The notes below the pieces were generated by a model. It was not told the origin of the DNA. It saw only the letters and a list, made by a program, of their open reading frames with translations, and made no database searches. A program made the position numbers and the translations under genes. Source: Amylibacter sp. (lineage in GTDB: Bacteria; Pseudomonadota; Alphaproteobacteria; Rhodobacterales; Rhodobacteraceae). From it: a stretch of DNA of 21,302 nucleotides. Numbering within the stretch: the first letter of the stretch is position 1; each line of letters begins with the position of its first letter. The stretch covers positions 1 to 21,302 of the forward strand of contig DAOUQS010000007.1 of the NCBI GenBank assembly GCA_030625465.1, read 5' to 3'. Of the stretch, positions 2,988-19,519 are shown piece by piece.

Positions 2988-5063
2988 TCATCCTCCCAGC
3001 TCCAAGTCATATTTTACAGTCTTGAATGGCACCCCATCGGGATCAACATCGGTGTCAAGTTCACGGGCGTAGCGATGGCCTTCGTACACAGCGGCAGCGA
3101 TGGTGGCCGGGCCGTAGCAATCACCGATGCGGCGCACAGATTTAATGTTAGCGGTTTTCAGTTTGTCAGGGTCATTCATCAACGCATCATAAAGCGCGTC
3201 GTTGGGCAGACGCATGGTCACCGGCACCAGTGTGCCCAGGTGCTTTACGCTTTCACCAGTGACAAGGTTAACCATTTCGATCCCCCCGTCGCCAAGTGCC
3301 ACCACAGAATGGCGCGGCAGGATTTTCACGCCTAGACCAATAAGTCGTTTTTCGATGTGTTGTTGCTCCAGTGTATACTCGGTCCAGCTGCTCACACATA
3401 GTCCCGGTGTTACCAGAGTGACTTGATATCCTTCACCTGCCAACAAGTCGGCCATCATGCTGCCCATGTAATAATGATCGTCATCAAACACCATGACTTG
3501 GCCATTGTCGGGCCGCTTGCCGTCCATAATATCGCCGGGGCTTAGGGAATGTGGGTATATGGCACCCGGTATGGGCTTGCGGATATGGCGCCCGATGCCA
3601 TCACGACGCCATGCGGAACCAGTGGCAAGGGCCACATGATCCGCACCAAACTCCAGAACCTCTTCTACGCTCAGTTCGCTGTTCAGGTATAGATCAACAT
3701 TGGGCATGGGTGCTATCTGGCCCAGCCGATAATCGCGCACCCGCGCCCAGGCATTCAGGTTTGGCAGCGCACTTTCGCGGCTGACACGCCCGCCAGCCTT
3801 AGACCCGGCCTCAGCCAAGGTCACGCGGTAGCCACGTTTACCCAGTTGATGTGCGGCCTCTAACCCGGCGGGGCCGGCACCAACCACCAGCACGTGGCTG
3901 TCCGACCCTTTTGGTGCGATCTGTTCTGGATGCCAACCTTTACGCCACTCTTCCCCCATCGTCGGGTTTTGAGTGCAGCGTATGGGGGCGGAAATATTGT
4001 TCCACGCCGCACAGATATTGCAGCCAATGCATTCGCGGATGTCATCTACACGACCTTCCTTGATCTTATTGGGTAGGAATGGATCAGCGATGGAAGGCCG
4101 TGCGGCACAGACCATATCAACCAGACCGCGCTTAATTGCCGAAACCATGGTATCGGGCGAAGTGTAGCGCCCAACAGCGGCAACCGGCTTGCTGCTGACC
4201 TGTTTGACGAAGGCGATATAGTCTTCCTGATAGCCTTCGGGTGCAAAACGCGAGGTCATGGAATCGTTTTCCCAGTCAGCGACATTGACATCCCACATGT
4301 CTGGCATTTCGGCCATCATCTCGATTGCATCCCGCCCTTCGTTTTGCCATTCCAACCCGTCAGGTCCCATCATTTCGTCAACCGCAAAACGTGCAACCAC
4401 GCCCATGGTATCGCCAACGGCATCCAGCGTTTCTTCCAATAGCTCACGATAAAGCCGCAGGCGGTTTTCCAGACTGCCTCCATATTCATCGCTACGTTGA
4501 TTGTGCCGGCGTGACAAAAAATGTGAGGGCATCGTGCCGTCATGCCCGGCATAGACCACAACAATATCAAACCCTGCCTCGCGCGCCCGCAGTGCGGCGT
4601 TGCGGTGCCAGCGGCGATAGGCCCGAATATCGCTTAAGTCCATGGCGCGGGCTTGTACCGGATGATTGTGCCATGTGACCGGACGGTGCATCGGGCCAAT
4701 GGGCACTTCACGGCTATAGATATTGCCCGTGTCGTGGCCGTTATGAACCAGCTCAACGGCGGCCAGACTGCCATGCTTATGCACTGCATTCACCATGCCT
4801 GCCAGATAAGGGACATCCACATCGCCCCATAGACGGGTTTCGGTAAACGGTTGCACGTCGCCTGTGGGGTGAAAATCACATTGCTCGGTTGCGACAATAC
4901 CCCAGCCACCTTCGGCCTTCATACCACGCATAGCGATCATGCTGTCGGGAAACAGGCGGCCCATACCGTTGCAGTGCGGTGCCTGATAGAACCGGTTGGG
5001 GGCTGTTACGGGCCCAATTTGGATGGGTTCAAATAGTATGTCATAGCGCGGATCTCGGGTCAT
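2988..5063 (-). CDS. TMADH-family FMN/4Fe-4S/FAD oxidoreductase (paralogue 1)
   Basis: This 691-residue flavoprotein has the architecture of trimethylamine and dimethylamine dehydrogenases: an FMN-binding TIM barrel, a 4Fe-4S cluster, then FAD- and NAD-type Rossmann folds. Cys31 in APHCNG matches the cysteine that covalently holds FMN in TMADH. Tyr171, His174 and Asp267 match the catalytic Tyr/His/Asp triad. Cluster cysteines are C345, C348, C351 and C363. The dinucleotide motif VLVVGAGPAG starts at 391. Of the aromatic residues that cradle the trimethylammonium group in TMADH, the first is Gln61 here; Trp264 and a tryptophan near the third site (Trp354) remain. The TMADH Ser74 and Trp105 positions are Glu75 and Val106. 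Oxidative N-dealkylation of an amine is expected, but the substrate is unknown. SD AAGGAA precedes ATG 5063. It is last in the minus operon. Confidence 0.92.
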   Translation of the reverse strand: MTRDPRYDILFEPIQIGPVTAPNRFYQAPHCNGMGRLFPDSMIAMRGMKAEGGWGIVATEQCDFHPTGDVQPFTETRLWGDVDVPYLAGMVNAVHKHGSLAAVELVHNGHDTGNIYSREVPIGPMHRPVTWHNHPVQARAMDLSDIRAYRRWHRNAALRAREAGFDIVVVYAGHDGTMPSHFLSRRHNQRSDEYGGSLENRLRLYRELLEETLDAVGDTMGVVARFAVDEMMGPDGLEWQNEGRDAIEMMAEMPDMWDVNVADWENDSMTSRFAPEGYQEDYIAFVKQVSSKPVAAVGRYTSPDTMVSAIKRGLVDMVCAARPSIADPFLPNKIKEGRVDDIRECIGCNICAAWNNISAPIRCTQNPTMGEEWRKGWHPEQIAPKGSDSHVLVVGAGPAGLEAAHQLGKRGYRVTLAEAGSKAGGRVSRESALPNLNAWARVRDYRLGQIAPMPNVDLYLNSELSVEEVLEFGADHVALATGSAWRRDGIGRHIRKPIPGAIYPHSLSPGDIMDGKRPDNGQVMVFDDDHYYMGSMMADLLAGEGYQVTLVTPGLCVSSWTEYTLEQQHIEKRLIGLGVKILPRHSVVALGDGGIEMVNLVTGESVKHLGTLVPVTMRLPNDALYDALMNDPDKLKTANIKSVRRIGDCYGPATIAAAVYEGHRYARELDTDVDPDGVPFKTVKYDLELGG

Positions 5064-5086
5064 TTTCTTATTCCTTCACGGCATTG

Positions 5087-5239
5087 TCATGTTAACTCTT
5101 CAAGCTTTATTTTTTCACTGTGTATTAAAAACAAAGGGTAGTAGGTTGTTTCGGGGGTGATACTGAGATTGTTTTTCACCGTAACACCATCTTGCAAGAT
5201 AGGGTTGAATTGAGATATTGGCTTCGTGTCTGCGGTCAT
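5087..5239 (-). CDS. Small ORF of 50 residues between enolase-superfamily and TMADH-family genes
   Basis: I translated the apparent gap between the two large minus-strand genes. An ATG at 5239 overlaps the upstream stop as ATGA, the arrangement of a translationally coupled gene. The frame stays open for 50 codons and ends in TGA 23 bp before the next start, so it nearly fills the gap. The purine run AGAGAG lies upstream of the ATG. The product starts MTADTKPISQFNPILQ and has no membrane segment or cysteine. The stretch FNPILQDGVTVKNN loosely resembles the N-terminal hairpin of old-yellow-enzyme-type barrels (FxPIxxGxxTxKNR), so it may be a small partner or a leftover of such a gene. It is visibly more AT-rich than its neighbours. 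Function unknown, and expression is unproven. Confidence 0.5.
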   Translation of the reverse strand: MTADTKPISQFNPILQDGVTVKNNLSITPETTYYPLFLIHSEKIKLEELT

Positions 5240-6384
5240 TTGATTGATCTCTCTTTCATCCGGGCGGGCTGGGAGGCAGGGTCGTATTCCATGGCTGCAA
5301 GGGCTCCTTCGTCAACAGTGACCCCTAACCCCGGCTCGGGGGAGAACGGAATACAGCCATCTTCATCCAGCTCAACTGGGAAGCATGAGAAGGTATTGGA
5401 TGCTTTTTCCAAACGGGGGAAAAATTCCACCACTGTAGCATTTGGGCAAACTGCCGCCGCCTGCATGGCCGCCGCAAGGCCGATGGTCATTGTGTTGTCA
5501 TTGTGAATCGCGACAGGTGTTGAATAGGCTTCGGCGATCGCTGCGATTTCCTTTGTGCCCAGAATGCCCAATAGGGTTATTTCCGGGTTCAGAATATCTG
5601 CGGCCTGATTTTCAAGAAGCCGACGAAAATCCTGTTTTGTGACCAGAGTCTCACCCGAAACGATCTGTAGGCGTGATTGGGCGCGGATTTGCGCCAGCGC
5701 GTCCGTATCCTTCGCATCAGCTGGATCCTCAAACCATGAAACCTCATGAGCGCGCAAAGCCTCGACAATTACGGAAAAATCCTTTGGGGATAACTGGCTC
5801 CACATATCAACAAAAACGTCAATACCGGGACCGACCGCATCCCGAACTGCCCCAAGGCGTTCGATGCCTTCTTTTGCTGTGGCACCATAGAGGAAAGGAT
5901 AGATCTTGACGGCCTTAAAACCTCGTTCCACCTGTTTGCTTGCAAAACATGCGAGCTGTTCTGCAGAGCGGGTTTTATCACTCCAGCAATTTGCGTATAG
6001 CTTGATACGGTCGTGACAGCCCCCCCCCAGTAAATTGTAAACAGGCGCGCCCAAAGTCTTGCCGATGATGTCCCACAGGGCGATTTCGATACCGGCTGCC
6101 GCCGTCGAAATATCGGTTTCTTCCAGCGGATTGATGTTGGTTTCAGATATATTTTTCATGAAGCGTTTGATGCAATACGGGCTCTTGCCCACCAGGCTTT
6201 GCGCTAACCGGTGAACCTGTGCAGCAATCGCATGTTCACGTGTATGGAACCTATGCGTCTCACCCCATCCTTCTATGCCTTCGTCGGTTTCCAGCTTGAC
6301 CAGAACCCAGGTTTCCCCAGCAGACCAATCTGTTGCAGATATTTTGGACGGGACGATAAAAGTTTTCACATTCGAAATTTTCAT
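5236..6384 (-). CDS. Enolase-superfamily enzyme, mandelate racemase/muconate lactonizing type
   Basis: This 382-residue enzyme has the N-terminal capping domain and the C-terminal barrel of the mandelate racemase/muconate lactonizing group. Members abstract the proton next to a carboxylate and then eliminate, racemise or cycloisomerise. Expected Mg2+ ligands are Asp193 (VDMWS), Glu219 (WFEDP) and Glu245 (VSGET). Lys160 in FKAVKIYPF occupies the KxK position, but the second lysine is Tyr162. His294 (IHNDN) is the likely general base of the mandelate racemase subgroup; its usual Asp partner appears to be Glu268 (NPEI). A sugar-acid dehydratase or a betaine epimerase-like activity is possible; the substrate cannot be named. 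The stop overlaps the start of the 50-residue ORF, and the SMR gene ends 21 bp upstream. A run of nine cytosines (6020-6028) lies inside the gene. Confidence 0.87.
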   Translation of the reverse strand: MKISNVKTFIVPSKISATDWSAGETWVLVKLETDEGIEGWGETHRFHTREHAIAAQVHRLAQSLVGKSPYCIKRFMKNISETNINPLEETDISTAAAGIEIALWDIIGKTLGAPVYNLLGGGCHDRIKLYANCWSDKTRSAEQLACFASKQVERGFKAVKIYPFLYGATAKEGIERLGAVRDAVGPGIDVFVDMWSQLSPKDFSVIVEALRAHEVSWFEDPADAKDTDALAQIRAQSRLQIVSGETLVTKQDFRRLLENQAADILNPEITLLGILGTKEIAAIAEAYSTPVAIHNDNTMTIGLAAAMQAAAVCPNATVVEFFPRLEKASNTFSCFPVELDEDGCIPFSPEPGLGVTVDEGALAAMEYDPASQPARMKERSIK

Positions 6385-6405: not shown

Positions 6406-6738
6406 CTATCCGTGTGTGGCAGTTTTGGAGAACATCTGAATTACAACAATTCCGCTAAGGATAAGTGTTATTCCCAAAAACGCCGGTAAATCAAGTTTCT
6501 GTTCAAAGATCACACTGCCAATTCCAGCAATTAGGGCGATGCCAACGCCGGACCATATGGCATAGACAATACCAACCGGCATGACTTTCAGCGTGAGTGC
6601 CATGAAATAGAATGACGCAGCATAGCCAACCACCACAATGGCGGAAAAACCAAGTTTGGTGAATTGCGCGCTAGCCTGAAGCGCTAAAGTTGCCGTAATT
6701 TCCGTGATAATTGCGAGAAGTAAATAGATGTAGTGCAT
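6406..6738 (-). CDS. Small multidrug resistance (SMR) family exporter, EmrE-like
   Basis: This 110-residue protein has four membrane helices and strong similarity to EmrE. Glu13 in the first helix corresponds to the proton/substrate site Glu14. Tyr39, Tyr59 and Trp62 (GIVYAIWSGVGIALI) match EmrE Tyr40, Tyr60 and Trp63. The family exports quaternary and other lipophilic cations in exchange for protons, as dimers in the inner membrane, and EmrE has been reported to move betaine and choline. A very strong GGAGG site four bases before ATG 6738 suggests independent, efficient translation. It sits between the cupin and enolase-superfamily genes of a catabolic operon, which suggests relief from toxic amine intermediates or excess substrate rather than drug resistance (inference). 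Confidence 0.93.
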   Translation of the reverse strand: MHYIYLLLAIITEITATLALQASAQFTKLGFSAIVVVGYAASFYFMALTLKVMPVGIVYAIWSGVGIALIAGIGSVIFEQKLDLPAFLGITLILSGIVVIQMFSKTATHG

Positions 6739-6795: not shown

Positions 6796-6855
6796 GGCGT
6801 CCGAACAATGCGCCGAACGCCACCGTAAATACGGGTGTATGATCTGTCACAGATC
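6796..6855 (-). repeat. Cluster of three short stem-loops downstream of the cupin gene
   Basis: Three short inverted repeats sit between the cupin stop and the SMR gene. TGATCTG/CAGATCA with a 3-base loop spans the stop codon. CCGTA/TACGG lies at 6823-6827 and 6830-6834. GGCGT/ACGCC lies at 6796-6800 and 6817-6821. On the minus transcript no run of T immediately follows, so this is not a standard intrinsic terminator. It could be an RNA-processing or stability element that uncouples cupin expression from the genes downstream. Confidence 0.35.
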
Positions 6856-7602
6856 AAGTATGGCGTAGTGTTTTTTCACATGGTCTTTGATAGCCCAGCT
6901 GCAAACCGTTCCCTTGGGCACGAAAAAACAATCCCCGCCACGGAATGTTTGTGCAGTGCCGTCCGCTTCGGTAATCGTCACTTCGCCGTCCAACATGCGC
7001 ACAAACTCATGGGTTGGAAAGGGCAGCATCTTGCTGACCATCGGGCCGCTTTCCCAGGTACCGACGTGGAAGTTTCCGGCATCGTTGGTGAAGATCGTGT
7101 GGTTCTTTTGCTCTGGCGCTGTACCTTCGATCTCAAACGGGTCGGTGGTATCCATGACCTCCATTTCCACATCGGGATCAAGCACGCGAACGCCGCCTTC
7201 TGCTGATTTTATTTCTGGCGTTTCAGCATTTGGGTCAAGAAAAGTGATGTAGAGTTTCTTAAGATAACCTTCTTGATGCCAACTGGTCGGGATGGCGTTG
7301 CGAAAATATGCACAGTCATTGGCATGGACCGGCACCGTATCCCCGTTGTCGTGAACCATCTTGAATTCACCTTCAAGAACCCAGATAAACTCATCGCCCG
7401 GATAGGGGCCAAATGCTTCGCGCATGGTGGTCGTGTCCCAGACGCCCACATTCAGGCCGATCGCGGGATCGCTATAATAAACATGCACATGCTGCGTCGG
7501 TAAGGGGGATTGAAAATCGGCTGGGTCGCATTTCATTTCAGCTATGCCAGACCCGTTCGGCCCGTTTCGTTCAAGGCGAATAATTCTCTTTTCAATGCTC
7601 AT
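6847..7602 (-). CDS. Two-domain cupin protein (Cupin_3/DUF861-like)
   Basis: This 251-residue protein contains two cupin folds, at about residues 50-120 (GVWDTTTMREAFGPYPGDE then WVLEGEF) and 178-250 (VGTWESGP, FVRMLDGEVTI, GGDCFFVPKGT). The repeated GxWxxxP-VLEG-GDxxxxP layout is that of the Cupin_3/DUF861 group, seen in (S)-ureidoglycine aminohydrolase-like and EutQ-like proteins. The classic HxH metal motif is not evident, so an enzyme role is uncertain; it may bind an amine, act as an isomerase or lyase, or sense a ligand. I chose ATG 7602 because GGGGTAAATAC precedes it; a longer in-frame start at 7701 adds a basic segment lying in the control region. It is first in the minus operon and divergent from the binding-protein gene at 7872. 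Confidence 0.82.
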   Translation of the reverse strand: MSIEKRIIRLERNGPNGSGIAEMKCDPADFQSPLPTQHVHVYYSDPAIGLNVGVWDTTTMREAFGPYPGDEFIWVLEGEFKMVHDNGDTVPVHANDCAYFRNAIPTSWHQEGYLKKLYITFLDPNAETPEIKSAEGGVRVLDPDVEMEVMDTTDPFEIEGTAPEQKNHTIFTNDAGNFHVGTWESGPMVSKMLPFPTHEFVRMLDGEVTITEADGTAQTFRGGDCFFVPKGTVCSWAIKDHVKKHYAILDL

Positions 7603-7871
7603 GTATTTACCCCGTAGATAAGTTGAAACAGGTGCGCGAATTATTGAGATTCGCCCAAACCGCCTTTGAATTTGATTAAATACTGTCTTGACTCGACTCA
7701 AAAATCAACCCACTGATTGAATGATCATTCAGTGGATAGGAAGGTATTTACGAAAAATTGCAGGCAGGGGCCGAAACAAAAGCAACTGTCGTGACGAATG
7801 TCGCAACCTGAAAAGCGCAAGAATGATTATATTGCCTGGTAAACTCTGGGTGCCAAAAAGGGAGACCGAAT
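7603..7871. promoter_or_regulatory. Divergent control region between the two catabolic operons
   Basis: These 269 bp separate the first gene of the minus operon (cupin) from the first gene of the plus operon (binding protein). No convincing coding frame is present. It must carry both promoters. The main visible element is the palindrome at 7718-7731, nearly central, which could control both directions. I could not find a consensus-quality -35/-10 pair; TATATT near 7832 is a possible -10 for the plus operon but lacks a good -35. Confidence 0.6.
7710..7735. promoter_or_regulatory. Perfect 14-bp palindrome, candidate operator for the BetI-like repressor
   Basis: TGAATGATCATTCA at 7718-7731 is a perfect palindrome. 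Overlapping it, CCACTGA (7710-7716) and TCAGTGG (7729-7735) form a second inverted repeat with a 12-base spacer and a centre shifted by 2 bp. TetR-family repressors usually bind palindromes of this size, and the BetI site contains a related TTGAAC/GTTCAA palindrome. A BetI-like gene lies in the plus operon at 12032. The assignment as its operator is inference; the symmetry is directly visible. Confidence 0.6.
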
Positions 7872-8993
7872 ATGGATGTAATTGACCAATTAGGTGAGCT
7901 TGGCGAAGGAAAGCTGAGCCGCAGAAAATTCACAAAATCACTAATGGCTGCCGGGATAGGTATTGCCACAACGCCACTGGCTTCTAGCCTTGCCCAAGCG
8001 GCGGCAGATGATCAGGGTACCTTCTTTACTTGGGGTGGATATGACATTCCGGAACTGTTCGGTGCTTACAAGGAAAAGCACGGCGAATTGCCAAGTTTTG
8101 CAACTTTCGGCGGGTCGGAAGAAGCCTTGACCAAAATGCGCGGCGGCTATGTTGTTGACGTTTCGCACCCGTGTAATGCGGGCATTCCGCGCTGGATTGC
8201 CTCGGGTCTGTTCCAGCCAATTGACACATCGCGCCTGTCGAACTGGTCTGATGTGATACCAGAGCTTTATAACCTTCAAGGCAACTTCGTGGATGGCAAG
8301 CCGTATCTGGCACCGTTTGATTGGGGCCAAACCTCGATCACCTACCGCACGGATCTTTTCGAGCTGGAAGGCGAAGAGTCTTGGGATATGCTTTGGGATG
8401 AACGCTACAAGGGTCGCCTTGGCAGCCTAGCATCAGGTGGCGACGCTTGGTGGTGTGGTGCCATCAAGGCCGGTGTCGCCATGAGTGATATCGATACACC
8501 TGAAGCCTTTGAAAAGATCGCGGCGGCTATGCGCGCACAACGCCCGCTTATTCGTGTCTACACGGATGACACCACCACATTGGAACAAGCACTTGCTTCG
8601 GGCGAGATGGTTGCTGCGATGACTTGGAACAGTTCGGCATCGCTACTGAAAGCCGATGGTGTTCCTGTCCGGTTTGCAACCCCGAAAGAAGGTGCTTTGA
8701 CTTGGGTTTGCGGGTTGATGATTCACAAGGATGCACCAAATCTGGATAGTGCTTATGACATCATTGATTCCCTGCTAAGTGTGGAATCCGGTAAGTACAT
8801 GATCAATGATTATGGCTATGGCCATGCCAACAGTAAGGCCTTCGACGCATTCGACGAGGAAACCCTAGTGGGGCTTGGTCTAAGCAAGACCCCGACCGAT
8901 ATCCTTGCCGCAGGTCACTTCCAAATACCGCAGTCGCAGGAATGGGAAACCAAGATGAACGCCTTGTTTGAGGAAATCAAAGCAGGCTTTTAA
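7872..8993 (+). CDS. Pot-type ABC transporter periplasmic substrate-binding protein
   Basis: This 373-residue binding protein is complete. A Tat signal (LSRRKFTKSLMAAG, about residues 15-28) is followed by a hydrophobic stretch and a likely cleavage after SLAQA. The mature protein starts with TFFTWGGYDIPELFGAYKEK and shows the family pattern YLAPFDWGQTSITYR, typical of PotD-like extracytoplasmic receptors for polyamines and related organic cations. Several Trp/Tyr residues (WGGY, FDWG, AWWCGA, TWVCG) could form a cage for a methylated ammonium group (inference). GGGAG lies nine bases before ATG 7872. It is first gene of the long plus operon; the strong hairpin after it probably keeps its expression above that of the permeases. 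Confidence 0.92.
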   Translation: MDVIDQLGELGEGKLSRRKFTKSLMAAGIGIATTPLASSLAQAAADDQGTFFTWGGYDIPELFGAYKEKHGELPSFATFGGSEEALTKMRGGYVVDVSHPCNAGIPRWIASGLFQPIDTSRLSNWSDVIPELYNLQGNFVDGKPYLAPFDWGQTSITYRTDLFELEGEESWDMLWDERYKGRLGSLASGGDAWWCGAIKAGVAMSDIDTPEAFEKIAAAMRAQRPLIRVYTDDTTTLEQALASGEMVAAMTWNSSASLLKADGVPVRFATPKEGALTWVCGLMIHKDAPNLDSAYDIIDSLLSVESGKYMINDYGYGHANSKAFDAFDEETLVGLGLSKTPTDILAAGHFQIPQSQEWETKMNALFEEIKAGF

Positions 8994-9002: not shown

Positions 9003-9050
9003 TTTCGGGCCTGATTGGGTTTAATTGATCCGCCGGGCCCGAAATTTTTT
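9003..9050 (+). terminator. Intrinsic terminator-like hairpin after the binding-protein gene (probably leaky)
   Basis: TTTCGGGCC (9003-9011) pairs perfectly with GGCCCGAAA (9036-9044) across a 24-base loop, and six T residues (9045-9050) follow at once. This is a textbook intrinsic terminator, 10 bp past the binding-protein stop. Since the permease and ATPase genes follow on the same strand, it is likely partial, as in other importer operons where the binding protein is made in excess. Confidence 0.8.
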
Positions 9051-9064
9051 GCATATAGGTTACC

Positions 9065-9117
9065 TTGCGATTTTGCGCGATTGCGCGCGATCAGGGTCAC
9101 CTTCCAGTCACTTCCAG
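9065..9117 (+). repeat. Short tandem repeat series in the binding-protein/permease spacer
   Basis: The spacer shows TTGCGAT, then TTGCGCGAT, then TTGCGCGCGAT (9065-9091), a series growing by one GC step each time. The near-duplicate TCACCTTCCAG / TCACTTCCAG follows (9097-9117). No function is known; replication slippage could have produced the pattern, or it may form part of the permease mRNA leader. Confidence 0.45.
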
Positions 9118-9204
9118 TTTGGAGCACGCCTCAATATGAGTGCAGATCACGCAACAAATATCTCAGGCTGCACAACGCCTCTGCCAAAGACCGGAAGGCT
9201 GAGC

Positions 9205-10068
9205 ATGATGCTACAGAAATCCGAGACGTTGCGCGCCTACAGCCTGTTATCGCCAACTCTGATTATCATGGCGATCGGTATTCTTGTGCCGTTTGGCATC
9301 CTGATCGTCATGAGTTTCTGGACGCAGGTTGGTTTTGGGTTTGACATGACCCCGACTGTTGCCAATTACGAAATGGCCACGGAACGGCCCATTTATGGCG
9401 CGCTGCTTAAGCGATCCTTGTGGATGTCCGGCATGGCAACCGTTACCACCGTGCTGCTGTGTTATCCAATGGCTTACTTCGTTGCCTTCCATGTGCATCG
9501 CAACAAGATGTTATGGATCGTCCTGATGACACTTCCGTTCTGGACCAGCTACCTGCTGCGGGTTTTCGCCTGGAAAGTGGTGCTGGGCTATGATGGTGTT
9601 ATCAATTCAGCCCTGATGAACATCGGGTTGATCGAAAAGCCGCTGGAATTTCTTCTTTACAGTCAAGCCGCCGTGATCATCACGCTTGCACACGCCTGGG
9701 CGGCGTTTGCCATTTTACCGATGTATGTGTCGCTTGAAAAAATCGACAGGTCGCTCTTAGAGGCGGCTACCGACCTTGGCGATGGGCCGGTGATGCGATT
9801 TCTTAGAATAACACTGCCGCTATCGCTGCCGGGTGTCATGTCGGCCACCCTGCTGATTTTCATTCCAACCACCGGCGACTATATCACACCAGCACTTCTG
9901 GGTGGCCCTGACGGCGTGATGATTGGCAACCTGATCCAGAAACAATTTGGGGCCGTGAACAACTGGCCCATGGGGGCAACACTTGCCATCATCCTGATGC
10001 TGTCGATCGCGATGATTACACTGGTCTTTTTGTTCGCCACCAATTTCGTCAGAAAGCGTATATCATGA
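9205..10068 (+). CDS. ABC transporter permease 1 (PotB-like)
   Basis: This is an inner-membrane permease of 287 residues from the chosen start, with about six membrane helices beginning LLSPTLIIMAIGILVPFGIL. The cytoplasmic EAA loop that docks the ATPase is clear: EAATDLGDGPVMRFLRITLP. PotB-type proteins are about 285 residues. I prefer ATG 9205 because GGAAGG lies six bases upstream; an in-frame ATG at 9136 with a distant GGAG would add 23 hydrophilic residues and remains possible. A still longer TTG start at 9025 falls inside the terminator hairpin and is unlikely. It overlaps the next permease gene by 4 bp (ATGA). Confidence 0.9.
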   Translation: MMLQKSETLRAYSLLSPTLIIMAIGILVPFGILIVMSFWTQVGFGFDMTPTVANYEMATERPIYGALLKRSLWMSGMATVTTVLLCYPMAYFVAFHVHRNKMLWIVLMTLPFWTSYLLRVFAWKVVLGYDGVINSALMNIGLIEKPLEFLLYSQAAVIITLAHAWAAFAILPMYVSLEKIDRSLLEAATDLGDGPVMRFLRITLPLSLPGVMSATLLIFIPTTGDYITPALLGGPDGVMIGNLIQKQFGAVNNWPMGATLAIILMLSIAMITLVFLFATNFVRKRIS

Positions 10069-12031: not shown

Positions 12032-12706
12032 ATGAACCAAGAACAGATAAAACCTGATAAGATCAGTCCAAAAAAACCCAGAACCGCCTCAAAAGAAGTG
12101 CGGCGGCAACAGCTTATCAACGCCACAATCGACAGCATTGCCAAACATGGCATCGCGGGCACTACTGTGACCACTGTTACCAAGGCGGCTGGCCTATCTA
12201 TGGGGCTGGCAAACTTCCATTTCGCAACCAAGCAAAACCTGTTTGAGGAGACCCTACGCTTTCTGGCCGAAGAGCATCACAATCACTGGAAGGTCAGCTA
12301 TGAAAAAGCTAATCTTACCCCTGTGGATAAACTCCGGGCCATTGTTGCAGCACATTTTCATTCCAAAATCTGTAACCGGAAAAAAATCGCCGTCTGGTAC
12401 AGTTTTTTCGGCGATGCCAAGGCGCGGGCTTCTTACCGTAAGCTTGCTGACGAAATCGATACTGAACGCCGTGATATCACGGCTGAGCTGTGCATACAGA
12501 TCATCAAAGACGGAGGCTACGATAATGTGGATCCTGTCAATATCGCCTATACGCTTGAAGGTCTTTATGATGGTCTGTGGCTTAACATTCTGATGTATCC
12601 TGAGGAATTTTCACGCTCTGACATGACCTTGCGCATCGAAAGCTACCTTTCGCTGGTCTTTCCAAGACACTTCAAAAACTCCACCAACCCTGCATGCAAA
12701 GGATAG
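12032..12706 (+). CDS. TetR-family transcriptional repressor, BetI-like
   Basis: This 224-residue regulator has an N-terminal TetR helix-turn-helix at about residues 25-70 (RRQQLINATIDSIAKHGIAG, then AAGLSMGLANFHFATKQNLF). This pattern and the C-terminal GLYDGLWLN segment match BetI, the choline-responsive repressor of glycine betaine synthesis, whose C-terminus has DGLWLR. The N-terminus is about 15 residues longer than BetI and rich in Lys. No bet dehydrogenase genes are nearby, so it probably senses the amine processed by this locus. It lies between the transporter and enzyme genes; the palindrome at 7718-7731 is the best candidate operator. The next gene starts 3 bp after its stop. Confidence 0.88.
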   Translation: MNQEQIKPDKISPKKPRTASKEVRRQQLINATIDSIAKHGIAGTTVTTVTKAAGLSMGLANFHFATKQNLFEETLRFLAEEHHNHWKVSYEKANLTPVDKLRAIVAAHFHSKICNRKKIAVWYSFFGDAKARASYRKLADEIDTERRDITAELCIQIIKDGGYDNVDPVNIAYTLEGLYDGLWLNILMYPEEFSRSDMTLRIESYLSLVFPRHFKNSTNPACKG

Positions 12707-12709: not shown

Positions 12710-14761
12710 TTGGCCCGTGATCCACGTTATAACATCCTATTTGAACCGATTAAAATTGGCCCTGTAACCGCTAAAAACCGATTTTATCAGGTGCCGCATT
12801 GTAACGGCATGGGGCATCTTTACCCATCCAGTTGGCTTGAAATGCGGCGCATCAAAGCCCAAGGGGGCTGGGGTGTGGTGAACACTGAAGAAGTTGAAAT
12901 CAGCCATACGTCTGAACTTAGCCCGATCCCGGAAGGGCGGCTTTGGGATGACAGCGATATTCCGCTTTTGGCCAGAATGGCTGATGCGGTTCACGAATAT
13001 GGCGCGCTGGCCGGCATTGAACCTGCGCATCTGGGTGGCGGGGCGTCCAATAACTACAGTCGGGAAATTCCGATGGGTGTGTCTGCGCGGCCCATCGACC
13101 TTCTGGAACCCATTCAGGCCCGGGCCATGGACAAGGCAGATATCAAGGCATTTCGTAAGATGCATGTCGATGCAGCCATTCGCAGTAAGAAGGCCGGATT
13201 TGACATCATCTATATTTATTGCGGCCATGATATGACGACCTTTGCCCATTTTCTGTCTCGCCGTAATGATCGGTCGGATGAATATGGCGGGGTGCTGAAA
13301 AACCGGGTCCGCCTGATCCGCGAGGTTCTTGAAGAAACCAAAGAGGCGATTGGCAACACCTGTGCCGTGGCCATACGCTTTGGTGTCGAAGAACTGATAG
13401 GGCCAGCAGGACTGACCTGTGAGGGCGAAGGGCGCGAAGTTGTCGAGTTGCTGGCCGACCTGCCGGATCTTTGGGATGTGAACCTGTCCGGCTGGCCAAA
13501 TGACAGCGCGACCTCTCGGTTTGAGGCAGAGGGATTTCAGGACAGTTATGTTTCTTTCGTCAAGAAAGTAACCAACAAGCCGGTTGTCGGTGTCGGCCGC
13601 TATACCTCGCCTGATGCGATGGTTTCGCTTATCAAAAGCGGTCAACTTGATCTGATTGGTGCGGCACGGCCCTCAATCGCTGACCCGTTCCTGCCCAATA
13701 AGATTGCAGAAGGCCGGGTTGAAGATATTCGCGAATGTATCGGCTGCAACATGTGTGTGACCGGGGACGCTTTGGCAACGCCAATGCGGTGTACGCAAAA
13801 TCCGACCATGGGCGAAGAGTGGCGCCGTGGCTGGCACCCTGAAAAGATCGCTCCGGCGAAATCTGACGAGACTGTTTTGATCGTCGGGGGTGGCCCCGCG
13901 GGGCTAGAGGCCGCGCGTGCTTTGGGCCAGCGGGGGCATGCCGTAACACTGGCAGAGGCTGGCACTGAAACTGGCGGACGGGTTGCTATTGAAAGCCGCC
14001 TGCCGGGGCTTTCGCAATGGCGCCGGGTGGCTGATTACCGCCAATACCAGATCAGCCAGATGGCCAATGTTGAGGTCTTTTATGACAGCCGTTTGACAGC
14101 AGAACAGGTTTTGGAGTTTGGGGCAGATCACGTTGTTCTGGCCACCGGGTCGAAATGGGCACGCCACGGTATCGGGCGGCATAATCACGATCCGATCCAG
14201 ATGTCTGATGGGGCAGTGGTTCTGACACCGGATGAAATTGCGGCAGGTAAGATACCCAAAGGCCCGGTCGTGGTGTTTGATGACGATCACTACTACATGG
14301 GCGGTGTCATGGCCGAAAAACTACGGCTTGAAGGGCTGGATGTGACCTATGTCACGCCGGCTGCGGATGTGTCGACATGGACGCACAACACGTTGGAACA
14401 GGCTAAAATTCAGACACGCCTGATCGAATTGGGTGTCAAGATCGTACCACTTCACAATCTTGCTTCCATTGAACCCGACCATGTTAAGCTGGCTTGCGTC
14501 TTTACCGATAAAAAACAAACATTGGTGTGCAAATCAGTGGTGATGGTCACCATGCGCGATGCCGAAGATGCGCTTTACCATGCCTTGACGGCAAACCCCG
14601 AAAACAGCCCAAAGACCGTGACCCGTATAGGCGATTGCCTTGCACCCGGTACCATCGCGGCCGCCGTTTATTCCGGCCACCGCTATGCCCGCGAATTGGG
14701 CGAACCCGTATCTGAAGGGGTTCCGTTTCGCCGTGAACTTGTTGCCCTGTCCCCTGATTGA
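12710..14761 (+). CDS. TMADH-family FMN/4Fe-4S/FAD oxidoreductase (paralogue 2)
   Basis: This 683-residue member of the trimethylamine dehydrogenase family likely removes N-alkyl groups oxidatively from an amine. The start is TTG; AAAGGA precedes it and the resulting MARDPRYNILFEP aligns end to end with TMADH. Cys31 matches the flavinylation cysteine. Tyr170, His173 and Asp265 match the catalytic triad. Cluster cysteines are C343, C346, C349 and C361. The FAD/NAD motif VGGGPAGLE starts near 392. The substrate pocket differs strongly from TMADH: the Tyr60 position is Glu61, Ser74 is Glu75, Trp105 is Ala106, and the third cage tryptophan is missing; only Trp262 of the cage remains. Two acidic residues in the pocket suggest a substrate with an extra positive or hydroxyl group (inference). 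Confidence 0.93.
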   Translation: MARDPRYNILFEPIKIGPVTAKNRFYQVPHCNGMGHLYPSSWLEMRRIKAQGGWGVVNTEEVEISHTSELSPIPEGRLWDDSDIPLLARMADAVHEYGALAGIEPAHLGGGASNNYSREIPMGVSARPIDLLEPIQARAMDKADIKAFRKMHVDAAIRSKKAGFDIIYIYCGHDMTTFAHFLSRRNDRSDEYGGVLKNRVRLIREVLEETKEAIGNTCAVAIRFGVEELIGPAGLTCEGEGREVVELLADLPDLWDVNLSGWPNDSATSRFEAEGFQDSYVSFVKKVTNKPVVGVGRYTSPDAMVSLIKSGQLDLIGAARPSIADPFLPNKIAEGRVEDIRECIGCNMCVTGDALATPMRCTQNPTMGEEWRRGWHPEKIAPAKSDETVLIVGGGPAGLEAARALGQRGHAVTLAEAGTETGGRVAIESRLPGLSQWRRVADYRQYQISQMANVEVFYDSRLTAEQVLEFGADHVVLATGSKWARHGIGRHNHDPIQMSDGAVVLTPDEIAAGKIPKGPVVVFDDDHYYMGGVMAEKLRLEGLDVTYVTPAADVSTWTHNTLEQAKIQTRLIELGVKIVPLHNLASIEPDHVKLACVFTDKKQTLVCKSVVMVTMRDAEDALYHALTANPENSPKTVTRIGDCLAPGTIAAAVYSGHRYARELGEPVSEGVPFRRELVALSPD

Positions 14762-14782: not shown

Positions 14783-16870
14783 ATGAGCCGCGATCCACGT
14801 TACGACATCCTTTTTGAGCCGATCAAAATCGGGCCGGTCACGGCAAAAAACCGCTTCTATCAGGTGCCTCATTGCACCGGAATGGGCTATCTGCGACCAC
14901 GCATGCTGGCTGATATGCGTGAAATGAAAGCGATGGGTGGCTGGGGGGTGATCTGCACCGAATATAACTCGATCCATCCCAGTTCGGATGACCTGTCACA
15001 CCCATCAGCCTCGCTCTGGGATGATAGCGATATTCGGGCGCATGCGCTGATGACCGAAAAGGTGCACGCCCATGGTGCGCTGGCGGGGGCTGAATTGTGG
15101 TATGGCGGGATCCGGACCGCAAACATGCTGACGCGCGAAGTGCCGATGGACCTTGCTAGTTTTCCCAATTCCGTAGGCCATCCGTTTCAAACCCGTGGGA
15201 TGGACAAATCCGACATTCGCATGTTTCGCTACTGGCATCGCAAAGCGGCCTTGCGCGCCAAAGAGGCGGAATTTGACATCGTCTATGTCTACGCAACCCA
15301 TGGCTACCTGATCTCAAACTTCCTTAACCCGCATATGAACACGCGCAGCGATGAATATGGCGGCTCGCTTGAAAACAGAACCCGGTTGCTGCGCGAATTG
15401 ATCGAAGAAACCAAAGAGGCTGTGGGCGATCGCTGTGCCGTTGCTGTCCGTTTTGCAGCGGACGAACAAATTGGCGAAGATGGCGTGCCGATCCACGGTG
15501 AGCGGCGCGAGATGTTTGAAATGCTTGCCGAAATGCCGGATCTCTGGGATATCAACATCGCGGATTATTCGCTGGAAATGGGGGTATCGCGTTTCGTCAA
15601 AGAGGCGCCACTGGAACCCTATATGGATTTCGTGAAATCCGTGACCAGCAAACCGGTTGTAACAGTGGGTCGCTTTACCTCGCCTGACACAATGGTCAGC
15701 CAGCTGAAACGTGGCGTAGTCGATATGATTGGTGCGGCGCGTCCGTCAATCGCTGACCCGTTCCTGCCCAATAAAATCGCAGAAGGCCGGATTGACGCTA
15801 TCCGCGAATGTATCGGCTGCAATGTGTGCTATTCTGGTGATGCAATCGGTGTGCCGATCAGGTGCACGCAGAACCCGACGATGGGCGAGGAATGGCGCAA
15901 GGGCTGGCATCCTGAAAAGATTGCAGAAAAAGGCTCAGACGGTAAAGTTCTGGTCGTGGGTGCGGGGCCAACTGGCCTGGAAGCTGCCCGTGCCCTTGGT
16001 GCACGCGGCTATGATGTCATGCTGGCGGAAGCCACGCGCGATCTTGGCGGACGTGTTACACGCGAATGCGCCCTACCGGGGATGGTTGAATATGTTCGCG
16101 TGCGCGCCAACCGCGAACAAGAACTGTTGAACATGCCCAATGTCGAAGTGTACCGCGAAAGCGCGCTGACAGCAGAGGATGTTTTTGCGACCGAAGCCGA
16201 TCACGTAGCGATTGCCACCGGTGCCACATGGCGCCGCGAGCGGTTCAACGAAGAGGCCTATGTCTCCGTTGCCGCAAAAGGTACAACGCCCGAAATCCTA
16301 ACACCCGATGACATCATGGACGGCAAGCTGCCCAAGGGGCCGGTGCTGGTCTATGACGAAGACGGCTATTACATGGGCGGTGTGATCGCCGAACGCCTGA
16401 TTGATGCTGGTCTTGAGGTCACGCTGGCTACACCGTCTGACCAAATATCCCAATGGGCGGGGAAAACCTCGGAACGTTGGCGGGTGCGCACGCATCTTAT
16501 GAAACTGGGGGTTAAAATCATCGTGTCCCACAACCTGACCACATTTGACGGCAAAACGGCAAACCTTGCCTGTGAATATTCCGGGACAGCACTGCCGTTG
16601 CCCGTAAGCTCGGTCGTTATGGTCACGCAACGAACCCCCAATGACGGGCTTTACCGCGACATTCTTGCCAAGGTTGACGGCAAGATTGATGAGCTACCCT
16701 TCACCCTGAAACGGATCGGTGATTGCGAGGCCCCGGCTATTATTGCGGCGGCCATCTATGCTGGTCACAAATACGCTCGCGAGTTGGATACCGTGGTTGA
16801 TCTCGATGAGCCAATGAAACACGACCGGGTTGATGTGGGCGATATCCCCTTTGCGAGGTATAAGTCATGA
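14783..16870 (+). CDS. TMADH-family FMN/4Fe-4S/FAD oxidoreductase (paralogue 3)
   Basis: This 695-residue family member starts MSRDPRYDILFEP after a GGAG site. Cys31 (VPHCTG) matches the FMN-linking cysteine; C343, C346, C349 and C361 ligate the 4Fe-4S cluster; the dinucleotide motif VVGAGPTGLEAA follows. Tyr170 and His173 match the catalytic pair, but the Asp267 position of TMADH is Glu265 here. Tyr61, Ser75 and Trp106 match TMADH Tyr60, Ser74 and Trp105, whereas the Trp264 position is Tyr262 and the third cage tryptophan is absent. It is therefore the closest of the three to TMADH at the specificity positions but altered in its triad. It overlaps the next gene by 4 bp (ATGA). Confidence 0.93.
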   Translation: MSRDPRYDILFEPIKIGPVTAKNRFYQVPHCTGMGYLRPRMLADMREMKAMGGWGVICTEYNSIHPSSDDLSHPSASLWDDSDIRAHALMTEKVHAHGALAGAELWYGGIRTANMLTREVPMDLASFPNSVGHPFQTRGMDKSDIRMFRYWHRKAALRAKEAEFDIVYVYATHGYLISNFLNPHMNTRSDEYGGSLENRTRLLRELIEETKEAVGDRCAVAVRFAADEQIGEDGVPIHGERREMFEMLAEMPDLWDINIADYSLEMGVSRFVKEAPLEPYMDFVKSVTSKPVVTVGRFTSPDTMVSQLKRGVVDMIGAARPSIADPFLPNKIAEGRIDAIRECIGCNVCYSGDAIGVPIRCTQNPTMGEEWRKGWHPEKIAEKGSDGKVLVVGAGPTGLEAARALGARGYDVMLAEATRDLGGRVTRECALPGMVEYVRVRANREQELLNMPNVEVYRESALTAEDVFATEADHVAIATGATWRRERFNEEAYVSVAAKGTTPEILTPDDIMDGKLPKGPVLVYDEDGYYMGGVIAERLIDAGLEVTLATPSDQISQWAGKTSERWRVRTHLMKLGVKIIVSHNLTTFDGKTANLACEYSGTALPLPVSSVVMVTQRTPNDGLYRDILAKVDGKIDELPFTLKRIGDCEAPAIIAAAIYAGHKYARELDTVVDLDEPMKHDRVDVGDIPFARYKS

Positions 16871-17358
16871 CAAAATCAGCTTCCTCTGCCCCGACGCAGG
16901 CTTATATCGATACGTTGCTGCTTTATTACGAGGAAGAGGTTGAGGGAGAGACCTATTTCAAAGCATTGGCGGATTTTGCGGAGCAACCCGATCACAGTGA
17001 TAAGTTGAATTTACTGGCCAAGGTAGAAAACCACGCCGCCAATATCACACTGCCCCTGACCCGCAAATACAATCTGACCCCAAAAGGCGATGCACTCCTG
17101 TTCCAATCTGGGCAAGAAATGGCGCGCAGGGATAACAAAACTTGGGCTGACCTTCTGTCGGAAATGGCACGGCTATTTCCCGGTTATGTAGATGATTTCC
17201 TGCGGCTCGAGGCGATGGCCCCACCCGAAGACTTGCCGCGTTTGAAGCTGCTGACAGCGCATGAGGTTGCAGCGGTTGAATTCCTTGATTTGGAATTATC
17301 GGGTGCACAGGGTAGTGTTGCGCCGTTGAACGCCTATCTTGAGGAAGACATTACATGA
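16867..17358 (+). CDS. Small acidic, helical protein of unknown function, possibly ferritin-like
   Basis: I do not recognise this 163-residue protein. It is soluble, acidic and predicted mostly helical, with four likely helices at about residues 12-38, 45-66, 78-112 and 122-145. Acidic and histidine residues fall in helix-like positions: EEEVEGE (22-28), E54 and H56, then H132, E133 and E138. That recalls ferritin-like four-helix bundles such as rubrerythrin, but the defining ExxH motifs are not present, so a metal centre is only a possibility. Its start overlaps the preceding flavoprotein stop and its stop overlaps the next start (both ATGA). This tight coupling suggests a subunit or chaperone that acts with the neighbouring flavoproteins (inference). 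Confidence 0.8.
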   Translation: MTKSASSAPTQAYIDTLLLYYEEEVEGETYFKALADFAEQPDHSDKLNLLAKVENHAANITLPLTRKYNLTPKGDALLFQSGQEMARRDNKTWADLLSEMARLFPGYVDDFLRLEAMAPPEDLPRLKLLTAHEVAAVEFLDLELSGAQGSVAPLNAYLEEDIT

Positions 17359-17558
17359 ACCGGTCACGGGGTATCTATCTGGGCGCCTTTCTTGCTATTT
17401 CGTTAATCGGCGGGGTCTGGTTCTTTGCCTATGATAAGGCACCAGTCCCTGCCAAAGAAATAAGTCAGGCTGTGGTCTGCGATGCTTGTGCCGCACGCCA
17501 TAAGAACCTGATACGATTGCGCGATGCGGGTGGCCTTACCGCGAAAACGGGGGACTGA
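17355..17558 (+). CDS. Small membrane-anchored CxxC protein of unknown function
   Basis: This 67-residue protein has one membrane helix (about residues 8-26, GIYLGAFLAISLIGGVWFF) after a basic N-terminus, so the rest should face the periplasm. The tail carries CDACAARH (C42, C45, H49). The spacing CxxCxxxH is not the CxxCH of c-type haem; a metal site or a thiol pair is possible. The gene starts in an ATGA overlap and its TGA overlaps the next ATG (TGATG), placing it firmly inside the operon. I know no named family for it. The overlaps and readable motif make a real gene likely despite its size. Confidence 0.72.
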   Translation: MNRSRGIYLGAFLAISLIGGVWFFAYDKAPVPAKEISQAVVCDACAARHKNLIRLRDAGGLTAKTGD

Positions 17559-19519
17559 TGGCGCAAGATTTTCCAAATCTTTTTTCAGAACTTGCTGTCG
17601 GCCCGACATGTTTGAAAAACCGTATCTTATCGACCGGTCATATGACCGTCATGCTGGAAAACGGTGTTCCAAGTGATGCAATGGTCGCCTACCACAAGGC
17701 GCGCGCCGCAGGTGGTGCAGGACTGATTATTCTGGAAGCGGCGCGCGCGCATATATCGGGCGAAGGCAGTCGGCCTGCAATCCGGGCCTATGATGATGCC
17801 TGCATCCCCGGCTACCAACGCATTGCCAAGGCCTGCCATCCCTTTGGTTGCAAGGTTTTTGCCCAGCTTTCACATCCGGGGCGCGAAATGCCGCTGGCAG
17901 CTGATGGTACATATGCCGTGGCCGTAGCACCTTCATCCATCCCCAATGAACGCTTTCATGTCATGCCCCGGGAAATGCCCCGGGCTTCAATAGCTGAAAT
18001 CATTGACGGATTTGAGGCTGCCGCAGGGCGCATTCGTCAGGCCGGGCTGGACGGGGTTGAGGTTGTCGCCTCGCATGGCTACCTGATCGCCCAATTCTTT
18101 AACGCCCGCGTTAATATCAGAACCGACGCATATGGTGGCAGTTTTGAAAACCGGATGCGCTTTGCCCGCGAAGTTCTGAAAGCCGTGCGGCAGGGTGCTG
18201 GGCCTGATCTGGCGGTTGGCATGCGACTGTCAGGCGCGGAAAACGACCATGATGGGCTTGATGATACTGAGTGCCTGAAAATTGCGCGTGCGTTGGCACA
18301 AGACGGAACACTTGATTATCTGAATATGACGGCGGGCACCTCTGCCGGTCTTGCCGGGTCTATCCATATTGTTCCCGCCATGTCGTTTGAGACCGGCTAT
18401 ACAGCACCATTGGCCGCAGCCGTTCGCGCGCAAGTTGATATTCCGGTTTTCGTGGCGGGGCGGATCAACCAGCCCCAAATCGCCGAACAGATACTGGCAT
18501 CAGGGCAGGCGGATATGTGTGGCATGACGCGTGCAATGATTGCCGACCCCAGAATGCCGCAAAAGGCCAAAGCCGGAAACTCGGATGACATCCGCGCCTG
18601 CGTCGCCTGCAATCAGGCCTGCATTGGCCACATGCTGAACGGGTACCCGATCTCATGCATCCAGCACCCAGAAACTGGGCGGGAACTTGAGTTTGGCACA
18701 CGAATACCAACGGAATCACCACGCCAGGTCATGGTGGTGGGCGGCGGCCCCGCTGGCATGAAGGCCGCAGCGGTTGCGGTTGAACGGGGCCATGAGGTAA
18801 CATTATTTGAGGCTGGTTCAATCTTGGGCGGGCAGGTGGCACTTGCGCAGCTTTTGCCGGGACGGGCTGAGTTTGGGGGCGTGACCCAGAACCTTGCCCG
18901 AAAGGTTATGGCCGCCGGTGTTACGGTTAAACTTGGCGTTCGGGTCACACGCGAATTGGTTGATCAGATCCACCCCGATGTGGTGATCATGGCAACAGGC
19001 GCCGTTCCATATACGCCTCTGATAGAAGGTGCTGAGGACGCGCATGTGATTTCCGCTTGGCAGGTGTTGCAGGGCAAAGCAAAAGTTGGTTCGCGAGTTG
19101 TCATCGCCGATTGGCGTTGTGACTGGATCGGATTGGGTCTGGCAGAACAACTGGCCCGAGATGGCTGTTATGTGCGACTTGTTGTGAACGGCATGACAGC
19201 TGGCCAGTCCATTCCGCAATACGCCCGGGATAAATGGCTGGGAGATATGCACCGCCTTGGGGTCGAGGTTATTCCCTATGCGCGCTTTTATGGGGCCGAT
19301 CAAGACAGTGCCTATTTTCAGCACACCTTAAGCGGTGAACCCATCGTGCTGGAAGGCATCGATACCATCGTTACCTCACTTGGGCACCAGCCGGTAACGG
19401 CATTGGCTGACGATCTTGGCGATTGGGGCGGTGACATTCACATGATCGGGGACTGTCTGTCACCGCGAACAGTGGAAGAGGCAGTGCTGGAAGGTCTTAG
19501 GATTGGATCGCAGATATGA
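17558..19519 (+). CDS. FMN/4Fe-4S/FAD oxidoreductase, 2,4-dienoyl-CoA reductase-type member of the TMADH superfamily
   Basis: This 653-residue flavoprotein has the same three-part plan as its neighbours but belongs to a different branch. The cluster motif is CVACNQAC with a fourth cysteine after 11 residues (C348, C351, C355, C367), the CxxCxxxC spacing of 2,4-dienoyl-CoA reductase rather than TMADH. The FMN-linking cysteine is absent (RILSTGHM), so FMN should be non-covalent. His173 in ASHGYLIAQFFN lies in the active site. The motif VMVVGGGPAG starts at 391. Related proteins act in dimethylglycine and N-methylproline demethylation, so N-demethylation is as likely as enoyl reduction. ATG 17558 overlaps the preceding stop by one base. 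Confidence 0.91.
   Translation: MAQDFPNLFSELAVGPTCLKNRILSTGHMTVMLENGVPSDAMVAYHKARAAGGAGLIILEAARAHISGEGSRPAIRAYDDACIPGYQRIAKACHPFGCKVFAQLSHPGREMPLAADGTYAVAVAPSSIPNERFHVMPREMPRASIAEIIDGFEAAAGRIRQAGLDGVEVVASHGYLIAQFFNARVNIRTDAYGGSFENRMRFAREVLKAVRQGAGPDLAVGMRLSGAENDHDGLDDTECLKIARALAQDGTLDYLNMTAGTSAGLAGSIHIVPAMSFETGYTAPLAAAVRAQVDIPVFVAGRINQPQIAEQILASGQADMCGMTRAMIADPRMPQKAKAGNSDDIRACVACNQACIGHMLNGYPISCIQHPETGRELEFGTRIPTESPRQVMVVGGGPAGMKAAAVAVERGHEVTLFEAGSILGGQVALAQLLPGRAEFGGVTQNLARKVMAAGVTVKLGVRVTRELVDQIHPDVVIMATGAVPYTPLIEGAEDAHVISAWQVLQGKAKVGSRVVIADWRCDWIGLGLAEQLARDGCYVRLVVNGMTAGQSIPQYARDKWLGDMHRLGVEVIPYARFYGADQDSAYFQHTLSGEPIVLEGIDTIVTSLGHQPVTALADDLGDWGGDIHMIGDCLSPRTVEEAVLEGLRIGSQI

Follow-up and report, generated by a model that had tools for sequence, protein, structure and literature searches.

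What does a bacterium take up and degrade with four related flavoenzymes encoded beside a Pot-type importer? The question is raised by contig DAOUQS010000007.1 of Amylibacter sp. (assembly GCA_030625465.1), whose 21,302 nucleotides, here called the window, make up the complete contig in a host genome of 2.27 Mb, 439 contigs and 84% completeness. A first-pass annotation saw a stepwise pathway in which three enzymes of the trimethylamine dehydrogenase (TMADH) plan, T1 to T3, strip successive N-alkyl groups from one compound before transamination by a class III aminotransferase (AT). Spelled out, T3 would act on the most alkylated form in an aromatic cage, and AT on the primary amine finally set free. 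Our analysis of gene content, pocket residues and gene order points to a different emphasis: the island probably imports a small di- or polycation, which may be N-methylated, and breaks its C-N bonds by oxidation. Neither trimethylamine nor glycine betaine would be the substrate on this reading, but a diamine, a polyamine or an N-methylated amine. Four of the genes are listed first; the last of them, a predicted ferritin-like gene directly after T3, was absent from the first-pass annotation and is new here.

2988..5063, minus strand: T1, amine-dehydrogenase-type flavoprotein, 691 amino acids, pocket Q60/E74/V105/W264/N355
12710..14761, plus strand: T2, amine-dehydrogenase-type flavoprotein, 683 amino acids, pocket E60/E74/A105/W264/D355
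14783..16870, plus strand: T3, amine-dehydrogenase-type flavoprotein of a separate clade, 695 amino acids, pocket Y60/S74/W105/Y264/E267/D355
16867..17358, plus strand: X163, unannotated, 163 amino acids, predicted ferritin-like helical protein, a stand-alone gene here

A Pfam scan places an Oxidored_FMN domain in T1, T2, T3 and the fourth flavoprotein, T4, and T1-T3 align nearly end to end, far beyond chance, with histamine dehydrogenase, TMADH (1djn) and HisD, the 6-hydroxypseudooxynicotine amine oxidase of structure 6l6j. All three are full-length enzymes and, as first annotated, share the TMADH domain plan; they retain a Cys at TMADH position 30, where HisD has Ala, together with the four cluster cysteines and the catalytic Tyr169 and His172. 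By these residues they belong to the 6-S-Cys-FMN amine dehydrogenase family of TMADH and histamine dehydrogenase and would be expected to bind their flavin covalently. Their cluster, C-x2-C-x2-C-x11-C, is of the histamine dehydrogenase type, since TMADH itself has an x12 spacing. Identities for T1, T2 and T3, respectively, are 52%, 54% and 50% to the Nocardioides simplex histamine dehydrogenase (3k30), 50%, 54% and 48% to that of Rhizobium sp. 4-9 (6de6), and 50%, 51% and 47% to HisD, which is also alike in fold and size and shares Glu60 with T2, versus 40%, 41% and 40% to TMADH. By sequence identity, T1-T3 are nearer to histamine dehydrogenase and HisD than to TMADH.

The residues at positions 60, 74 and 105 are exactly those given by the first-pass annotation, and two further positions define the pockets. 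At 264/355 we read Trp/Asn in T1, Trp/Asp in T2 and Tyr/Asp in T3, compared with Trp/Trp in TMADH and Trp/Asp in histamine dehydrogenase ("355" is the residue replacing Trp355, in alignment column 356, where TMADH has one extra residue). The column of the catalytic Asp267 holds Glu in T3, where the alignment may be off by one, as for the Rhizobium enzyme. The trimethylamine-binding bowl of TMADH, Tyr60/Trp264/Trp355, is complete in none of the three (T1 Gln/Trp/-, T2 Glu/Trp/-, T3 Tyr/Tyr/-). T3 shares Tyr60, Asp69, Ser74, Trp105 and Tyr174 with TMADH; we rejected its identification as a TMADH on the incomplete bowl, as it lacks Trp264 and Trp355. The histamine dehydrogenase pocket Gln60/Glu74/Trp264/Asp355 is likewise found in none, T1 reading Q/E/W/N, T2 E/E/W/D and T3 Y/S/Y/D. 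T1 and T2 each fall one residue short of it, T1 by its Asn355 and T2 by its Glu60, whereas T3 departs through an aromatic pocket with Tyr264 and Glu267. For the Rhizobium enzyme, published work gives an active site of Gln60, Phe72, Glu74, Trp263 and Asp354 with a Tyr171/His174/Asp265 triad, and states that histamine dehydrogenases also take agmatine, putrescine, cadaverine and 1,3-diaminopropane (PMC10180351). Such pockets invite an explanation free of N-methyl groups, namely polyamine or diamine deamination, in which T1 and T2 would be histamine/putrescine/agmatine-type enzymes for differing chain lengths and AT a parallel diamine aminotransferase; the T3 pocket, unlike that of histamine dehydrogenase, fits it less well.

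The differing pockets are genuine and retained inside clades with some drift. In a FastTree phylogeny of 127 rows, homologues of T3 split from the rows holding histamine dehydrogenase, T1 and T2 (local support only, with 35 forks open). The T3 clade comprises 44 alphaproteobacterial rows, window included, and 12 others, mostly Acidimicrobiia or unplaced, with one Acidobacteria and one Flavobacteriales metagenome-assembled genome. Tyr264 and Glu267 are present in all 44 and all 12, the acid at 355 in 43/44 and 12/12, Tyr60 in 41/44 and 12/12, Trp105 in 37/44 and 12/12, and Ser74 in 29/44 and 10/12. Homologues of T2 fall into two subtypes: T2a, that of the window (17 rows; Glu60 in 12 and Gln60 in five, Glu74 in 16, Asp355 and Trp264 in all), and T2b (10 rows; Glu60 and Asp355 in all, Trp72, Gly74 and Asn105 in nine each). 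The five T1 homologues keep Gln60, Glu74 and Val105, with Asn in three, Thr in one and Asp in one at 355. Two other homologues were seen in passing: a divergent paralogue of the T3 type, bearing Gly60 and Asn355, directly after T3 and X163 (L032:3432-5474, genome G009), and a gene that has every TMADH pocket residue tested (Tyr60, Ser74, Trp105, Trp264, Trp355) on a contig that also carries an ETF-alpha gene (L038:6893-9079, genome G011). The latter is likely a true TMADH by these residues, a gene separate from T1-T3.

Conservation of gene order was judged in two samples. The first comprises 44 T3 loci from alphaproteobacteria other than the window, drawn by T3 similarity, plus L124, fetched for its 92% T3; it shows how often T2, T4 and X163 accompany T3, not the reverse, and its counts are lower bounds because many contigs are short (L031 and L032 come from a single contig, which reduces 45 rows to 44 loci, and L078 was dropped as lying on the same contig as L035). 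The second consists of 295 genomes of one family, drawn regardless of T3, in which three first-look candidates per genome were scored (for AT, at most five). A T2-type gene precedes T3 by 12-47 bp on the same strand in 23 of the 44 loci. T3 orthologues occur in 18/295 family genomes and T2 orthologues (63-90% identity) in seven, all seven beside T3 with 18-32 bp between the two matches; this count excludes, from a raw tally of nine, G127, G073 and matches of 56-59% (T1 genes, G301:C654). Judged from this arrangement, T2 and T3 form a real module. The gene adjoining T3 in the 23 loci is T2a in 13 (L124 being assigned by 89% identity) and T2b in 10; T2a stands before T2b in four of these 10. No T2a was seen in the other six, among them L043, which begins at the end of its contig. 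Other contents of the 44 loci are X163 (26), a BetI-like gene (29), a Pot-type importer of either kind sought, SBP2 or SBPc12 (26), T4 (14), T1 (two) and a class III aminotransferase (11 at 45% identity or more, three at 75% or more).

In the close relative G301, one contig (L124) holds PERM1 through X163 as well as T4 and AT, and a second (L125) holds SBP2-CUP-SMR-T1; the two presumably adjoin because the importer is split between them. Together with the T2-T3 adjacency and a conserved palindrome described below, the same block in G301 already disfavours, for T2-T3, a chance neighbourhood of unrelated amine dehydrogenases. The rare linkage of T1 and of the enolase-like gene ENO is what such an accident would produce; of the explanations considered, we give chance the least credence.

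Two arrangements of the module deserve separate mention. In L046, L047, L061 and L076, T2a and then T2b stand in tandem before T3 and T4, making four such flavoprotein genes in a row. L080-L090 and L096, mostly Acidimicrobiia, have T3-clade enzymes with no T2 or X163 seen, several directly following Pot-type importer genes; this is perhaps the minimal form of the system. A protein of about 110 amino acids also recurs near T3-type or T2-type genes (L031:12496-12834; L066:8755-9084, the second just above the DUF6614 cut-off).

X163 is fused to the C-terminus of T3 in 17/44 loci and encoded separately in nine. Fused forms occur in Yoonia sp. F2084L (L058) and, alongside T2, in the cultured Shimia gijangensis (L050); Ruegeria denitrificans (L062), also cultured, carries T3. 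Its predicted fold is a four-helix bundle that superposes on ferritins, with identities to ferritins and bacterioferritins of 5-16% in the rows listed. E22-E24, E54, E115, H132 and E133 are invariant across 60 rows. The diiron ExxH motifs of ferritins occur in none of 25 aligned rows at 54/57 and 133/136 (positions set by helix counting), and X163 differs from ferritins also in partnering a flavoprotein. With both motifs absent, identification as a diiron ferroxidase was rejected. We found no description of the T3-X163 domain pairing in the open-access literature.

In the window, two divergent gene sets flank 7603-7871: leftward CUP, SMR, ENO and T1, and rightward SBP2, PERM1, PERM2, PotA2, the BetI-like gene, T2, T3, X163, T4 and AT, where successive genes are separated, or overlap, by no more than 45 bp, the one exception being 199 bp ahead of T4. 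Beyond T1 on the left, a LuxR-type gene lies on the plus strand and two genes of another Pot-type importer, PotA1 and SBP1, on the minus strand. The remaining features are:

3..842, minus strand: SBP1, Pot-type solute-binding protein truncated by the contig end (PF13416); accompanies PotA1 and LuxR in G042 and G011
875..2005, minus strand: PotA1, ATPase of the second Pot-type importer (PF00005/PF08402; potA TIGR01187 above its cut-off)
2092..2937, plus strand: LuxR-type regulator (PF00196); adjoins PotA1/SBP1 in G011 and G042
5236..6384, minus strand: ENO, enolase-superfamily protein, mandelate racemase/galactonate dehydratase-like
6406..6738, minus strand: SMR-family small exporter (PF00893)
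6847..7602, minus strand: CUP, bicupin (PF05899/PF07883); a start at ATG 7602 is likelier than TTG at 7701, several homologues aligning only from the ATG
7710..7735: 26-bp imperfect palindrome, candidate operator between the divergent units, core ATTGAAT-N4-ATTCAGT at 7716-7733
7872..8993, plus strand: SBP2, Pot-type solute-binding protein
9025..10068, plus strand: PERM1, PotB/PotH-like permease, start codon uncertain
10065..10880, plus strand: PERM2, PotC/PotI-like permease
10886..11986, plus strand: PotA2, importer ATPase
12032..12706, plus strand: BetI-like TetR repressor
17558..19519, plus strand: T4, dienoyl-CoA-reductase-like Fe-S flavoprotein of 653 amino acids, without the reductase's His252
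19557..20921, plus strand: AT, class III aminotransferase (PRK07036)

Profile matches bear out the Pot-type importer, the BetI-like TetR protein and the class III aminotransferase of the first-pass annotation. The nearest solved relatives of SBP2 bind putrescine or spermidine, a point in favor of diamine deamination. Importer type as proof of a polyamine substrate was rejected on the precedent of the Agrobacterium tumefaciens S33 nicotine cluster, in which putrescine/spermidine-type ABC genes more expressed on nicotine accompany a TetR regulator and Pno, an enzyme of the same family as T1-T3 (PMC5500553). The importer is thus a marker of an organic cation, not of a polyamine. The window shares with that cluster the Pot-type ABC genes and the TetR regulator, and no nicotine-pathway genes were recognised in it.

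The BetI-like protein scores under the BetI cut-offs (TIGR03384, 114 versus 201 bits; PRK00767, 114.1 versus 118). A search with ATTGAAY-N4-RTTCAAT, allowing at most one mismatch, of 47 sequences including the window gave 18 matches in 17 sequences, compared with 0-2 matches in each of ten dinucleotide-preserving shuffles of all 47. Spacers of 0-3 and 5-7 give 0-3 matches, and a spacer of 8 gives nine, five of which overlap N4 sites. Nine of the 18 lie 129-177 bp before SBP2 and six lie 8-198 bp before the BetI-like gene. The BetI-like protein is the candidate for binding the palindrome. None was found on L126, the T1 contig of G042.

We propose that the importer SBP2-PERM1-PERM2-PotA2 would bring in a small organic cation whose C-N bonds T2 and T3 would oxidize as 6-S-cysteinyl-FMN/[4Fe-4S] amine dehydrogenases, hydride passing to FMN and electrons through the Fe-S cluster to the electron-transferring flavoprotein ETF, while the iminium hydrolyses to an aldehyde and an amine. 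The two enzymes may act on separate portions of the compound or at separate stages of its breakdown: T2 has an acidic, histamine-dehydrogenase-like pocket, and T3 one that is aromatic on one side (Tyr60, Trp105, Tyr264) with the acid kept (Asp355). X163, as a bundle with a degenerate metal site, is probably a structural or docking partner of T3 rather than a ferroxidase. The BetI-like repressor at the 7710-7735 palindrome would control both divergent units, a shared control through which T1 and the cupin, exporter and enolase-like genes may have been recruited, and T4 and the aminotransferase would process later products. In its boldest form, the proposal makes T3 the first of a separate covalent-FMN amine dehydrogenase class (Tyr60/Trp105/Tyr264/Glu267/Asp355), two-part or fused with a new ferritin-like domain in alphaproteobacteria and joining T2 and a Pot-type importer, all controlled from a BetI-type operator, to degrade an N-methylated di- or polyamine that has no known bacterial pathway; we regard this full version as rather unlikely.

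Several observations weigh against the proposed system. The geometry of the T3 cage is unsupported because its pocket loops are poorly predicted (AlphaFold model, mean pLDDT 83; below 50 at 71-73, 110-130 and 348-359). T3 does not have one constant partner, since T2b, with its different pocket, adjoins it in 10 of the 23 loci, and T1 seldom accompanies it (2/44 loci, 2/295 genomes). The palindrome is missing at the stringency used from 30 of the 47 sequences, and three of its 18 matches lie elsewhere. A search of 21 T3-bearing genomes, L045 not among them, turned up no X163 in 18, so that T3 does not generally require it. Finally, ETF-alpha, part of the presumed electron acceptor, was not found in the host genome, 84% complete as assembled. 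This last observation, with the predicted ferritin-like fold of X163, its frequent fusion to T3 and its invariant acidic residues and histidine, would fit a redox-active X163 that relays electrons received from T3 onward to O2 or peroxide; T3-X163 would then be an oxidase or a self-sufficient oxygenase of quaternary amines. ETF-alpha is present in 26 of 27 relatives, however, and the missing ExxH motifs and the many T3-bearing genomes without X163 also argue against it; we consider such an activity very improbable.

Successive N-dealkylation itself would be expected to leave demethylation genes nearby. No Rieske oxygenase, dimethylglycine dehydrogenase (DMGDH)-type or GcvT gene was recognised among the window's open reading frames by Pfam scan, and canonical glycine betaine demethylation (Rieske or BHMT plus DMGDH) is likewise unmatched at the locus. 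The first-pass statement that Rieske and DMGDH-type genes are missing holds for the window and fails for the genome, which elsewhere, on other contigs, has one Ring_hydroxyl_A match with a Rieske domain, its nearest solved relative being carnitine monooxygenase, and three dimethylglycine/sarcosine-dehydrogenase-type fusions of DAO with GcvT. In other genomes the neighbours of T3 point both ways. As raw counts, not set against a background rate, Rieske oxygenase (five), DMGDH-type (four) or GcvT-like (four) genes lie in the fetched flanks of 13/44 loci, as N-demethylation predicts, and flavin amine oxidase (12), DAO-type oxidase (13) and PuuC-like aldehyde dehydrogenase (seven) lean toward diamine deamination, against which the five Rieske genes count. 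Taking pockets, importer and neighbours together, we see in diamine deamination a substantial possibility that nonetheless falls short of an even chance.

The distribution of T1 and AT bears further on a single N-dealkylation pathway. Close T1 orthologues occur in two of the 295 genomes (raw tally five; matches of 57-61%, which are T2 genes, excluded), and AT orthologues in the same two, a coincidence in its favor, as are the Tyr60 and Trp105 that T3 shares with TMADH. In G042, T1 and T2-T3 occupy separate contigs; T1 is preceded there by a DMGDH-type gene, again as the pathway would have it, and followed by LuxR, PotA1, SBP1, two permeases and two short-chain dehydrogenases. An importer and a regulator of its own argue against a common pathway, and from this arrangement T1 looks like its own module, joined to T2-T3. 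The lack of Trp264 and Trp355 in T3, the low number of T3 loci with a close AT and the window's lack of recognised demethylation genes count against it as well. Relatives of these enzymes deaminate primary amines (histamine, putrescine, agmatine), and Pno releases methylamine from a side chain (PMC5500553); N-dealkylation cannot be assumed for this reason. DgcA is a dimethylglycine demethylase with an NADH:flavin-oxidoreductase domain (PMC12093977). In sum, the first-pass proposal survives in its several paralogues with distinct, clade-kept pockets in one importer-linked island with a candidate operator and a linked T2-T3 pair. Its other elements are less well borne out: the T1 and T2 pockets are histamine-dehydrogenase-like in a family that also deaminates primary diamines, the rarity of T1 and its separate setting in G042 speak against all enzymes acting on one compound, and the rarity of AT speaks against transamination as a fixed last step. 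On balance we find the stepwise pathway doubtful.

Although the enzyme family, importer and regulator are of known kinds, we recognised no paper on this locus, and found no description of the T3 pocket class or the T2-T3 module, in the open-access literature. In our judgement, the dissolved amines eaten by marine Rhodobacterales, and the enzymes used, are largely unassigned; the island points to an undescribed route for eating an amine, and the T2-T3-X163 module with its importer and candidate operator can serve as a marker and narrows the enzymes worth assaying to a few.

The remaining enzymes of the island are less informative. T4 has the dienoyl-reductase cluster already reported (C-x2-C-x3-C-x11-C, as in its best match, the Escherichia coli 2,4-dienoyl-CoA reductase 1ps9), lacks Cys30 and, like that enzyme and TIGR03997 (mycofactocin OYE 2), has FMN and pyridine-nucleotide domains; it scores 628.7 bits against TIGR03997, under the cut-off of 793. 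The catalytic residues of the reductase are Tyr166 and His252. T4 retains Tyr166, but in the alignment to 1ps9 His252 is Ser and Glu164 is His, and it should not be filed as a dienoyl-CoA reductase for this reason. AT passes the PRK07036 model NF005447 (640 bits, cut-off 618), and the single solved chain at the cut-off used, 3i5t, is titled merely "aminotransferase". Nothing in the 44 T3 loci compared matches ENO at 45% identity or more, and the genes around T1 in G301 do not include it. The identification of ENO as a proline-betaine epimerase was dropped, the matches at the cut-off (2qgy, 4e4u) not being so named (judged by names, not against HpbD).

Further members of the family were encountered outside the T3 loci. 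The same genome encodes a fourth TMADH/histamine dehydrogenase-family enzyme (G000:C35:5022-7067), which is 57% identical to T2 and has a weakly BetI-like gene next to it. Plasmid-borne homologues of T1 or T2 (55-59%) in S. meliloti, Ideonella, Sulfitobacter and Shinella have different neighbourhoods and gave no substrate. On a Leisingera thetidis plasmid (L122), an enzyme of the TMADH family, 59% identical to T2, adjoins choline-sulfatase, a small cupin, an importer and betaine-aldehyde dehydrogenase. A candidate cluster for a betaine or a guanidino-amine is found on a Leisingera caerulea plasmid (L123), where a TMADH-family gene has an importer, agmatinase, a Rieske oxygenase, a member of the mandelate racemase family and an MttB-family methyltransferase in its vicinity.

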